From a candidate division KSB1 bacterium (GTDB lineage: Bacteria > Zhuqueibacterota > JdFR-76 > DREG01), in contig JADFJB010000029.1 of the NCBI GenBank assembly GCA_022566355.1, positions 1 to 38,984 of the forward strand: a DNA stretch of 38,984 bases, written 5' to 3'. The notes under the pieces were generated by a model, which saw only the letters and a list, made by a program, of their open reading frames with translations, ran no database searches and had not been told where the DNA came from. The translations under genes and the position numbers were made by a program. How positions within the stretch are numbered: the stretch's first letter is position 1; the number at the start of each line of letters is the position of its first letter. Below are positions 23,162 to 35,673 of this stretch, piece after piece.

Positions 23162-23258
23162 TGGATAATTCATGAATTGCAGTTTTAAGCATAAATCCCT
23201 CTTAGTTGTCATCCCGTCTCGACGGGATGACAGTGATAAGGTTTATGAATAGATCAGG
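23162..23258. repeat. Dispersed repeat family B, compact copy
   Basis: A 97-bp element with the same ends as the 1706-2075 repeat (TGGATAATTCATGAAT at the left, CAGTGATAAGGTTTATGAAT at the right). The centre is a perfect hairpin at 23208-23231, GTCATCCCGTC against GACGGGATGAC with a TC loop. It has no T-run, so it is not a canonical terminator, but the hairpin could affect read-through from the PorV-TPR gene or mRNA stability. It sits between that gene and moaA. Confidence 0.8.
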
Positions 23259-31248: not shown

Positions 31249-31312
31249 TCTAACCCAAATATTGATCCACTCGAGTTGAAACTTGGGAAATAAACAAAGC
31301 AGATTTTCAGCT

Positions 31313-34300
31313 ATGATTGGTACTCAGTTTGACCATTATATCATTGAAAAGAAAATTGGCGAAGGAGGGATGAGTGAAGTCTATCTGGCAAATGACACCC
31401 GATTACTTCGCCCTGTCGCTATCAAAATTCTTTCTTCCAAATTACTCCAGAATGAAGAAAATCGACTCAGGTTTATCCGCGAGGCTCGGGCGGCATCGGC
31501 TTTAAACCATCCAAATATTTGCACGGTTTATGATGTCGGTCATCAAAAGGGGATCAATTATATTGTTATGGAATTTGTTGATGGAAAAACCTTGCGGGAA
31601 ATATTGAATGAACGAAATTTCTTGCCGGAATCAGAAGTGATAAACCTGAGTTTTAGAATTTGTTCTGCTTTAGAAGCTGCACACAATAAAGGGATTATTC
31701 ACCGGGACATCAAACCGGATAATATAATGATCACTCGAGAAGGTTATGTGAAAGTTATGGACTTCGGTTTGGCGAAACTTGCTTCCGATTCAATCGAATC
31801 CGATCTCGGTGACAAAAAATATATCCAAATAAAAAAGGAACTCGCTCTTACTAAAGATACTTTGGCCTTAAGCGGCATAATGGGGACAGTTTCTTACATG
31901 TCGCCAGAACAGGCACAAGGCAAAACACTGGATTCCCGGACAGATATATTTTCATTTGGAGTTGTTCTGTATGAAGCCTTGACAGGTAATTTACCATTCA
32001 AAGCAAAATCAAATATCACAACCTTATCAAAAATCATCGAAGATGAACCACCAGGTATTCAACTAGTGAATAAAAATATTTCACCTGAAATGTCCGGAAT
32101 GGTAAACAAGCTGCTAAAAAAAAATGTTGGTGAAAGATATCAGAACTTTTTAGTTTTCATAAGTGATCTCAACAAATTGGAAAAGAAAACCTCTAACCCT
32201 CAAAAAAGATCATTGATTTTTTGGCCGCTAATAGCCGCTGTTTTTTTTGTAACTGTATTCGTCACCCTCTTTATGTTTAAGGAACAAAGCAAGGTTGAAG
32301 CTCAATCCGTCAATTTTTTATACGATTTCGGTTTCCCCGGAATCGGTGCAGGACAATTTGACCAACCCGCTGGTCTAGCCTTTAACAATTCAGGGGATTT
32401 AGTCATTGTGGATAAAATGAATCATCGTATCCAGACATTCGATTTGATGGGCAATTTTGTCTCTGAATTTGGCGCATTTGGATCAGAGGACGGCAATTTT
32501 AATCAGCCCACTGGAGTTGCGATCAACAGCTCAAGTAATATTTTGATTACCGATACATTCAATCATCGCGTTCAGGTATTTGATTCTTTTGGCAATTTTC
32601 TGTTTAAATTTGGTAGTGAATGTACAGTTGAAATAGATGAAAGCTGTGTTGACCCGGATGGTGCCGGACCATTGGAGCCGGGAGATGTCCAATTTGACCG
32701 CCCATACGGCGTCGCGGTGGATCACTCAAATAATATCATCATTGCAGATCTCTTCAACAATCGCATCCAGGTATTTGATCCTTCCGGAAAATATTTATTC
32801 AAGTTTGGCGGTCCTTGTATTATAAGGAACGGACAGTATTGTGTTGATTTTGATGGTTCAGGTCCCCTGGAATTGGGTGATGGACAATTTATGAATCCGT
32901 CTGGTGTGGTTGTGAATGACTCCGGTAATATTATCGTGCTTGAGTTTCAGAATTGTCGTGTCCAGGTATTTGATTCATCCGGCCGTTTTCTCTTCAAATT
33001 TGGCGAGTTAGGTTCCGGTGAAGGTCAATTTAATTTACCTACGGGAATCACGTTAGATAATGAGGACGATATTATCGTTACGGATTCAGGCAATAATCGC
33101 ATCCAGGTGTTCGATTCATCCGGCAATTATCTCTACCAGTTCGGTGTTCAGGGCTCCGGGGAAGGGGATCTCAATAATCCGGTTAGCACGCTAGTAGATG
33201 ATTATGGCAATATGGTGGTTTCCGATGCGAATAATAACCGTATTCAGGTTTTTGGAAATCCAATCTTTACAAAAGTAACATCCCAGGTTGGTTTAAAATC
33301 GTTACCTGTTGGGTTGAGGTTTGGAATCTTTGATTTTGACAATGATGACAACCTGGACCTCTACATCCAAATGAAAGATGTGCCCAGCGTTCTTTACCGA
33401 AATAATGGTGAAAACAAAGGGTATTCATTCACAAATATTTCATCCTCTACTGGACTAGACAAAGTATCAGGAGCACATTCGGGAGCAAGCCTTATTGATT
33501 ATGATAACGATGGTTTTGTAGATATATTTGTCACAGCCCATGGCGCCAAAATTCTTTATAGAAATAAAGGTAATGGAACGTTTGAAGATGTTTCTGATGT
33601 TTCCGGGGTTTCCGGAATCACCAATGAAGACAGATCCACTCATAATGCCTTTGGCGATTACAACAACGACGGTTATCTCGATCTGTTTCTCTCCAATGAT
33701 ACCAGCCGTGCAGCTGTCTTATACAAGAATAACGGCCCGCCGCAATGGCAATTTACAGACGTTACAGCAAAATCAAACATCGTTTTCAAGGGCTGGGCTC
33801 ATGGATGTGTTTTTGTGGATTACGACAATGACGGCGACCAGGATCTCTACATATCTACCTATTATGGTAATAACGTCTTATATAGGAACGACGGTAATGG
33901 TACCTTTACGGATGTTGCCCCGCTTGTGGGTCTTGCAATAGGGGAGCGGAGTCGAGGAACTGTCTTTGGCGATTATGACAACGACGGTGATCTGGATCTT
34001 TACGTTACCCGGGGCGTATTTCATACGGCATATTCGAATTTTCTCTTGCGCAATGATGGACCACCTGATTACACTTTTACAGATGTTACTTTCGAAGCTG
34101 GGGTCGGCGATAGTGGAGATGGCGGTGATTCTGCTTTTGGCGATTTTGACAATGACGGCGACCTTGATATCATTGTGGCTAATATGAACAACCAGGCAAA
34201 TGTACTTTATCGCAATAACGGCAACGGAACATTTACTAATGTGACTAAACTGGCTGGGGTATCTAATCCATTAAATATAGATCTTATCGCATTTGGGGAT

Positions 34301-34741
34301 TATAATAATGATGGTTTTCTCGATCTCTATGCTCTAATTGGGAATAATAACATTCTTTACCGGAATAGAGCGACGTCAAAGCATTGGCTAAAGATCAAAT
34401 TGGTTGGCACAAAAAGTAATCGGGACGGTTTTGGTGCAAGAATTATTGTAAGTACCGGCGATTTAAAACAGATGAGGTATGTCGACGGCGGAGATTTTGG
34501 GGGTGGATTTCAAAGCTCTCAGCCCATTCATTTTGGCCTTGGAACTGCGGAAAGTGTAGATCGAATCGAAGTGAAATGGCCAAGTGGTATTGTTACAGTC
34601 TTGGATGACGTACCAGTCAACCAGATGCTGACAATTGTGGAAGGAGATAGCCGTTGTCACACAAACCCCGATTCAATCGCTTTAAGCGATGGAATCGGTA
34701 ACAACCTGGCTCAAAGTAATATCCGTAAAGAGGAAACGTAG
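31313..34741 (+). CDS. Receptor-like Ser/Thr kinase with NHL and CRTAC ectodomain
   Basis: A 1142-residue PknB-type kinase fused to a large extracytoplasmic part. The kinase is residues about 6-290: GEGGMSEVYLA loop, K38 (VAIK), D132 (HRDIKPDN), D150 (DFGLAK) and GTVSYMSPEQAQG. One membrane segment follows (FWPLIAAVFFVTVFVTLFMF, about 303-325). Then come NHL propeller repeats to about 655 (for example GQFDQPAGLAFNNSGDLVIV, and NRIQVFD-like ends), FG-GAP/VCBS repeats (DYDNDG, YRNKGNGTF) and an ASPIC/UnbV domain (HWLKIKLVGTKSNRDGFGAR). The last 25 or so residues are encoded by a REP-like hairpin repeat. ATG 31313 is preferred because this kinase family usually begins MIGT; TTG at 31283 would add 10 residues. 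Confidence 0.9.
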   Translation: MIGTQFDHYIIEKKIGEGGMSEVYLANDTRLLRPVAIKILSSKLLQNEENRLRFIREARAASALNHPNICTVYDVGHQKGINYIVMEFVDGKTLREILNERNFLPESEVINLSFRICSALEAAHNKGIIHRDIKPDNIMITREGYVKVMDFGLAKLASDSIESDLGDKKYIQIKKELALTKDTLALSGIMGTVSYMSPEQAQGKTLDSRTDIFSFGVVLYEALTGNLPFKAKSNITTLSKIIEDEPPGIQLVNKNISPEMSGMVNKLLKKNVGERYQNFLVFISDLNKLEKKTSNPQKRSLIFWPLIAAVFFVTVFVTLFMFKEQSKVEAQSVNFLYDFGFPGIGAGQFDQPAGLAFNNSGDLVIVDKMNHRIQTFDLMGNFVSEFGAFGSEDGNFNQPTGVAINSSSNILITDTFNHRVQVFDSFGNFLFKFGSECTVEIDESCVDPDGAGPLEPGDVQFDRPYGVAVDHSNNIIIADLFNNRIQVFDPSGKYLFKFGGPCIIRNGQYCVDFDGSGPLELGDGQFMNPSGVVVNDSGNIIVLEFQNCRVQVFDSSGRFLFKFGELGSGEGQFNLPTGITLDNEDDIIVTDSGNNRIQVFDSSGNYLYQFGVQGSGEGDLNNPVSTLVDDYGNMVVSDANNNRIQVFGNPIFTKVTSQVGLKSLPVGLRFGIFDFDNDDNLDLYIQMKDVPSVLYRNNGENKGYSFTNISSSTGLDKVSGAHSGASLIDYDNDGFVDIFVTAHGAKILYRNKGNGTFEDVSDVSGVSGITNEDRSTHNAFGDYNNDGYLDLFLSNDTSRAAVLYKNNGPPQWQFTDVTAKSNIVFKGWAHGCVFVDYDNDGDQDLYISTYYGNNVLYRNDGNGTFTDVAPLVGLAIGERSRGTVFGDYDNDGDLDLYVTRGVFHTAYSNFLLRNDGPPDYTFTDVTFEAGVGDSGDGGDSAFGDFDNDGDLDIIVANMNNQANVLYRNNGNGTFTNVTKLAGVSNPLNIDLIAFGDYNNDGFLDLYALIGNNNILYRNRATSKHWLKIKLVGTKSNRDGFGARIIVSTGDLKQMRYVDGGDFGGGFQSSQPIHFGLGTAESVDRIEVKWPSGIVTVLDDVPVNQMLTIVEGDSRCHTNPDSIALSDGIGNNLAQSNIRKEET
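34668..34698. repeat. 31-bp palindromic REP-like hairpin, copy 1 (inside kinase gene)
   Basis: Arms CCGATTCAATCGCTT and AAGCGATGGAATCGG with no more than a few bases of loop, identical to the copies at 35002 and 35411. It is read in frame by the receptor-like kinase gene (peptide PDSIALSDGIG) shortly before its stop. Confidence 0.9.
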
Positions 34742-34807
34742 CTTCAAAAAAAAACACAAAACTGAATGAGTTAAATGCAACCAAATCGATGGAAGCGATT
34801 GCATCGG
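34697..34807. repeat. About 115-bp repeat unit A
   Basis: This unit (GGTAACAACC ... AGTAATATCCGTAAAGA ... TGAATGAGTTAAATGCAACC ... GATTGCATCGG) recurs at 35440-35558 and 35557-35673. Its hairpin part (34787-34807) lacks nine bases of one arm, leaving CGAT then GGAAGCGATTGCATCGG. It supplies the stop codon of the receptor-like kinase. Confidence 0.8.
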
Positions 34808-34817
34808 GGAGATAGGA

Positions 34818-35393
34818 ATGCAAAACTACTACCTACCATTACTCGGAGGAATGTATTATCACATTTACAACCGTGGCAATAACAAAGGAAATATCTTTTA
34901 CACGCCTAAAAATTACAAATACTTTTTGATAAAGTATGGGGAGTATATTTCAACTTATCTGGAAACCTTTCATTTTTTGGTAAGAGTGAAGGAGCGAAAT
35001 CCCGATTCAATCGCTTTAAGCGATGGAATCGGTAACAGAATAAGTGAACAATTTAGACGCTTTTTTATTGGTTATTCCCAGGCTATTAATAAACAGGAAA
35101 AAAGAACAGGCAGCCTCTTCGAGAAAAAGTTTAAAAGAATCTGCATCACTTCAAATAATCACTTGGTTTATCTGATTTATTATATTCATGCAAATCCGCA
35201 AAATCATGGATTGATCAGTGATTTTAGTAAATATCCATATAGTTCTTATTCTGGAATGCTTGGAGATCAACCAACAAGACTTCAGAGAAAAGAAGTAATG
35301 AATTGGTTTGGTTCTAAGAGCGAATATGTAGATTTTCATAAGGATATCCGGGATTTAAAAGACATACAATATATTATGATTGAAGAAGATTAA
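34818..35393 (+). CDS. RAYT-like Y1 transposase, HUH motif deleted and repeat-invaded
   Basis: A 191-residue REP-associated tyrosine transposase relic with an open frame. YYHIYNRGNNKGNIFYTPKN and KQEKRTGSLFEKKFKRI with YIHANPQNHGL identify the family, and GYSQAIN holds the probable catalytic Tyr. Where related proteins read about YCLMPNHFHFL, this one has TYLETFHFLV: roughly nine residues including the first His of the HUH pair are missing. Immediately after RVKER the 31-bp hairpin repeat (35002-35032) is inserted in frame, encoding NPDSIALSDGIGN in place of the usual linker. It is therefore probably inactive in catalysis. The Shine-Dalgarno GGGAGATAGG precedes ATG 34818. Repeat hairpins flank it on both sides. 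Confidence 0.85.
   Translation: MQNYYLPLLGGMYYHIYNRGNNKGNIFYTPKNYKYFLIKYGEYISTYLETFHFLVRVKERNPDSIALSDGIGNRISEQFRRFFIGYSQAINKQEKRTGSLFEKKFKRICITSNNHLVYLIYYIHANPQNHGLISDFSKYPYSSYSGMLGDQPTRLQRKEVMNWFGSKSEYVDFHKDIRDLKDIQYIMIEED
35002..35032. repeat. 31-bp palindromic REP-like hairpin, copy 2 (inside RAYT gene)
   Basis: Identical in sequence to 34668-34698 and with the same flanks (AATCC/ACCC before, GTAAC after). It lies in the reading frame of the transposase gene and keeps it open. Confidence 0.92.
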
Positions 35394-35410: not shown

Positions 35411-35441
35411 CCGATTCAATCGCTTTAAGCGATGGAATCGG
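35411..35441. repeat. 31-bp palindromic REP-like hairpin, copy 3
   Basis: Same 31 bases as copies 1 and 2, 17 bp after the transposase stop and immediately before repeat unit B. Confidence 0.92.
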
Positions 35442-35673
35442 TAACCAAGTACCTAAAAGTAATATCCGTAAAGAAGAAAAGCAGGTTCAAGAAAAACACA
35501 AAGCTGAATGAGTTAAATGCAACCAAATCGATGCCATCGCTGGAAGCGATTGCATCGGTAACAACCTGACTCAAATTAAAACTCCTAAAGAAGAAAAGTA
35601 GGTTCAAGAAAAACCCAAAGCTGAATGAGTTAAATGCAACCAAATCGATGCCATCGCTGCAAGCGATTGCATC
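35440..35673. repeat. Tandem 115-bp repeat units B and C
   Basis: Two head-to-tail units, each with GGTAAC ..., AAAGAAGAAAAG.AGGTTCAA, AAAGCTGAATGAGTTAAATG and a terminal hairpin (35529-35558 and 35646-35673). These hairpins have arms CGATGCCATCGCT and AGCGATTGCATCG: compared with the main hairpin, T-A pairs are replaced by G-C pairs on both arms. Together with unit A at 34697 they bracket the transposase gene. The 35394-35770 gap is otherwise empty, and the long antisense frame across it is an artefact of the repeats. Confidence 0.85.

Follow-up and report, generated by a model that had tools for sequence, protein, structure and literature searches.

The RAYTs (REP-associated tyrosine transposases) are the enzymes thought to move REP palindromes. 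The window analyzed here, a contig of 38,984 nucleotides from a candidate division KSB1 bacterium (JADFJB010000029.1 in assembly GCA_022566355.1), contains a RAYT-like gene with a palindrome inside its reading frame and copies of the same palindrome on both sides. This arrangement raises the question whether a transposase gene has been written into by the very palindrome family that it presumably helped to spread and whether the gene could still act as the spreader.

The RAYT-like gene and its palindromes

The only family matched by the window protein is NCBIfam NF047646 (REP_Tyr_transpos), with an E-value of 3.6e-9 and a score of 36.6 bits, which is under the cut-off of 80; a Pfam search started with the same protein identifies no family even at E 10 and does not reach Y1_Tnp. 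The relatives at about 40-56% identity are RAYTs of Bacteroidota, Chloroflexota, Calditrichota, gammaproteobacteria and the window's own phylum. For one of these, from Draconibacterium orientale, an AlphaFold2 model (mean pLDDT 94) has as its best PDB match the entry 4ER8, the Escherichia coli RAYT with a REP hairpin (E 1e-7, TM 0.64/0.73, 17% identity). The Y motif, which contains a single tyrosine (Y..NP), reads YIHANP in the window protein. The family match and the fold of the relative agree with the original prediction that this gene encodes a RAYT homologue.

The 31-bp palindrome, CCGATTCAATCGCTTTAAGCGATGGAATCGG, is present at the locus in three mismatch-free copies, the middle one in the open frame of the RAYT-like gene (Table 1), both as originally predicted. 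The first reading overlooked the two diverged copies downstream, the degenerate one just upstream of the gene, the position of the first copy inside the preceding ORF and the loss of the HuH motif discussed below. Altogether, six palindromes of one family can be counted at the locus, five of them recognisable and one degenerate. The flanking copies belong to 117-bp units, of which one precedes the gene and a tandem pair follows it; the internal copy is a bare 36-bp block. Elsewhere in the window, a 26-bp hairpin at 23207-23232, TGTCATCCCGTCTCGACGGGATGACA, is unrelated to the 31-bp palindrome. An Rfam scan of the window yields no match.

Table 1. Features of the RAYT-like locus (window coordinates)
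Feature	Position	Strand	Comment
C-terminal tail and stop codon of ORF 31283-34741, most likely palindrome-derived	34667..34741	+	most homologues end just before
31-bp palindrome, upstream copy	34668..34698	+	within C-terminal codons of the kinase/NHL/FG-GAP/ASPIC ORF
Degenerate palindrome, same family	34785..34809	+	between upstream ORF and RAYT-like ORF
RAYT-like ORF, 191 aa	34818..35393	+	palindrome in frame; AYCLLxNH segment absent
Junction of the putative 27-nt in-frame deletion (codons F51 H52)	34968..34973	+	first HuH histidine removed
36-bp block (12 codons)	35001..35036	+	36/36 identical, internal vs downstream copy; likely insert unit
31-bp palindrome, middle copy	35002..35032	+	in frame in RAYT-like ORF; residues 62-72, PDSIALSDGIG
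31-bp palindrome, downstream copy	35411..35441	+	exact copy, 3' of RAYT-like ORF
117-bp unit, palindrome plus spacer	35412..35528	+	repeated at 35529-35645 (84%) and 34669-34785 (72%); BIME-like array
Diverged palindrome, same family	35529..35558	-	
Diverged palindrome, same family	35646..35673	-	

The upstream ORF encodes a protein of 1152 amino acids that combines a Ser/Thr kinase with NHL repeats, FG-GAP repeats and an ASPIC/UnbV domain, and its C-terminus ends with HTNPDSIALSDGIGN... A search started with the 133 C-terminal residues shows that most homologue matches stop at about residue 100-110, with a few weaker ones going further, and the palindrome begins at about residue 110. Because most matches end about where the palindrome begins, the tail and the stop codon of this protein most likely derive from the palindrome unit, as judged from these alignments. 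The palindrome is read in the same phase in this ORF as in the RAYT-like ORF.

Pattern and DNA searches of the 4.6 Mb genome identify exact 31-bp copies only at the RAYT-like locus, where all three are located, and nine copies of the wider palindrome family, of which the four distant from the locus are all intergenic. The GT[AG]G foot is not present at the window hairpin and was found in one of the 36 loop hairpins of relatives (see below). Thus, the palindrome is a low-copy element and, because of the low copy number and the missing foot, not a REP in the strict sense (GTAG type, with a GT[AG]G foot, high copy number and intergenic location). Such a small family would be odd for an active mobiliser and is consistent with a dead one.

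Hairpins in the loop of related transposases

The internal palindrome occupies a loop just after the HuH strand, and the original prediction that it replaces the usual linker is borne out, given that other members of the family have unrelated residues, or none, at this site. In the Draconibacterium RAYT, a hairpin encodes residues 66-77, and the block of lowest confidence in the model is residues 71-80 (mean pLDDT 58). The possibility that the loop peptide is a conserved element of RAYTs was considered and rejected, as the loop sequences vary freely among relatives; conservation of the peptide without palindromic DNA, the pattern that would speak against an insertion, was not found among the aligned relatives.

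The loop could be aligned in 125 relatives, 32 of which have a total of 36 hairpins in it. All of these belong to the 84 whose loops are at least 13 amino acids long (32/84, which is not a population frequency because the profile used to collect the relatives included RAYTs with internal hairpins), and none to the 41 with shorter loops. Of the 38 hairpins inside the genes of relatives, two are located elsewhere in the coding sequence and 36 in the loop, which accounts for 10.5% of the coding length (binomial p 4e-33). When the loops of the 125 genes were codon-shuffled, 0.11 hairpins were obtained in total on average, so that the 36 observed are far beyond chance. The number of loop hairpins per gene ranges from 0 to 3, with none in the majority of relatives; for example, there are two in each of two Methylobacter relatives, one in a third and none in a Methylomonas relative. 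In one RAYT (L053 1738-1887, G044:C47), three palindromes are present in a single loop and several more on either side, all of one family.

The same genome encodes a paralogue (L057 3774-4373, G000:C3) that is 48% identical to the window protein. The search for an intact paralogue suggested at the outset was thus successful: this protein has an intact HuH motif and contains, in frame in the same loop, a different palindrome, AAACCCCTCAGGTCTTCAAGACCTGAGGGGTTT, with a similar palindrome just downstream of the gene. Across the relatives, an internal hairpin is much more similar to the hairpins flanking the same gene (median similarity 0.76) than to hairpins from other loci (0.33; Wilcoxon p 5e-7). 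All three codon phases are used, and the distance from the HuH motif varies, with 22, 7, 6 and 1 cases by class. A tree of 99 RAYTs, including 31 carriers, that was built without the loop columns requires at least 19 state changes to explain hairpin presence, compared with a mean of 26.5 and a minimum of 20 for shuffled labels; presence is patchy and tracks kinship weakly. The likeness to own flanks, the use of all codon phases and the patchy distribution together indicate that loop hairpins have been repeatedly gained or lost. The collections searched contain no close orthologue of the window gene without the hairpin, the best relatives being about 56-59% identical.

A single ancestral insertion is disfavoured by the differing codon phases and by the tree. 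In a modified form of this scenario, the hairpin would be ancestral to this RAYT branch and would have been homogenised with the flanks by gene conversion rather than newly inserted time and again. The use of one and the same loop in all carriers, the similarity of internal copies to the flanks and some clustering of carriers on the tree (19 changes vs 26.5) are all compatible with this scenario, but gene conversion would preserve phase and site, contrary to the three codon phases and variable HuH distance, and differences in phase or exact site between sister RAYTs have already been seen in part, so that we consider it unlikely.

Alternatively, the internal palindrome could have a function in self-regulation, acting in the mRNA as a hairpin or in the gene as a site to which the RAYT binds, and be selected rather than merely tolerated. 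Internal hairpins do track their own flanks, and in two close relatives (L084 and L098) the first loop hairpin differs by paired, compensated stem changes within the coding sequence (TTCC/GGAA vs TCCC/GGGA). However, the patchy presence, the variation in phase, position and copy number, and the absence of hairpins from most relatives make a selected function improbable. The simplest account of the loop hairpins is that in-frame insertions persist at a site where the protein can accommodate them.

The missing HuH segment and the state of the locus

Every full-length relative contains the sequence AYCLLxNHFHLLVR or a variant of it, which in the alignment corresponds to ETFHFLVR in the window protein. 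Nine codons, including that of the first HuH histidine, are absent in frame from the window copy in the draft assembly. The HuH motif (H-hydrophobic-H) is not found in the window protein and is found in its relatives, including the paralogue from the same genome; H-x-H is kept in all full-length relatives, and the segment is gone solely in the window copy. The codons at the junction are ACC TTT CAT, compared with TTC or TAT ... CAT TTT/TTC CAT/CAC in relatives, and would allow a deletion by slippage between short TTT/TTC repeats. The HuH hairpin of the modelled window protein is built from two strands of 4 residues, vs 8 residues each in the Draconibacterium relative. Because the first HuH histidine is absent and the strands are shortened in the model, a catalytic residue appears to be missing from the window RAYT, which is probably dead, with catalysis unlikely. 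Accordingly, as regards the original prediction that this gene is linked to the spread of the palindrome family, the window copy is unlikely to be the present-day mobiliser. Among the other loci, one (L045 1557-2030, G067:C27) encodes a RAYT fragment that lacks the N-terminal half and begins at a palindrome of the window's family.

Given that this is a draft assembly of 213 contigs, with a number of similar repeats clustered inside 1 kb, repeat collapse might have created the internal hairpin copy or the 27-nt gap. This explanation is very improbable: on either side of the hairpin, the reading frame is open and the sequence family-like, the same arrangement is present in the paralogue on another contig and in many named genomes, and the gap is a multiple of three located about 30 nt from the repeat.

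We consider it most probable (roughly 0.8) that the locus is a degenerate REPtron, i.e., a RAYT gene with members of its own palindrome family on both sides, one of which was copied into the loop, and that, with the HuH motif lost, the locus is a relic. One palindrome would have been copied as a bare 36-bp unit of 12 codons into the disordered loop that connects the HuH strand, beta3, to the following helix, alphaC. Local copying would drop hairpins around and inside the gene, probably through a RAYT that acts on single-stranded DNA in the vicinity of its gene, or else through gene conversion between neighbours, and the dense palindromes around the gene would ensure a frequent supply of insertions. 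Selection would then spare just the in-frame hairpins in that loop, which appears to tolerate almost any peptide. An in-frame deletion of 27 nt, at the same time as the insertion or earlier, would have removed AYCLLxNH together with the first HuH histidine, so that the protein is most likely a nuclease no longer. A variant to which we give little credence is that the loop is a preferred landing or conversion site, in which the in-gene hairpin is renewed to match the current REP specificity of the enzyme, as self-marking rather than tolerated debris.

Comparison with known systems

Under the degenerate-REPtron reading, a transposase gene was invaded, as originally predicted; the case is not singular. 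An in-frame palindrome in a RAYT has already been described and is recurrent in one RAYT branch, so that the arrangement is not unreported and the window provides a further case: in the account of TnpA_REP subclass 2.4 by Quentin et al. 2018 (PMC6006769), REPs are inserted within tnpA_REP genes with the frame intact, as a rule between the HuH and Y motifs, in a region that is peripheral and variable. The same account gives the motifs NH[IFV]H, WQ and YIxNNP for this subclass. Like subclass 2.4 as described there, the window gene carries a REP-like palindrome in frame between HuH and Y, an arrangement with 36 cases in relatives; NHFH is found in these relatives, and their distribution over Bacteroidetes and scattered phyla is similar. 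Unlike that description, the window protein has a broken HuH, F in the W motif (GSLFE/FQ) and YIHANP as its Y motif, and the hairpin has no GT[AG]G foot. The relatives have NHFH, F[EQ] and YIHxNP, and the window protein has FE in place of WQ. Because the W motif and HuH differ and the foot is absent, the window RAYT is subclass-2.4-like and is not filed as a member of subclass 2.4 as published.

The E. coli RAYT/TnpA_REP (4ER8), the best structural match of the modelled relative, is a protein for which no internal REP has been reported. Intragenic REPs of the GTAG and CGTC families are short palindromes in protein genes that are tolerated in flexible parts or termini (PMC3733652), and the palindrome-encoded tail of the upstream FG-GAP/ASPIC protein is of this kind; unlike these REPs, the window family is low-copy, and one of its host genes is the transposase itself. 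The Rickettsia palindromic elements (RPE; cited in PMC3733652) likewise turn palindromic DNA into peptide by in-frame insertion but, as far as their description goes, association with a RAYT is no part of it.

To these systems, the present analysis adds figures for confinement to the loop, match to the own family and diversity of phase, as well as one RAYT copy in which HuH is broken and a palindrome lies inside the gene. In many phyla, a palindrome family has entered the gene of its own presumed mobiliser while preserving the frame, and the restriction to the loop, the own-family match, the three phases and the repeated gain or loss make insertion of hairpins by RAYTs near their own gene a testable point in REP dissemination.
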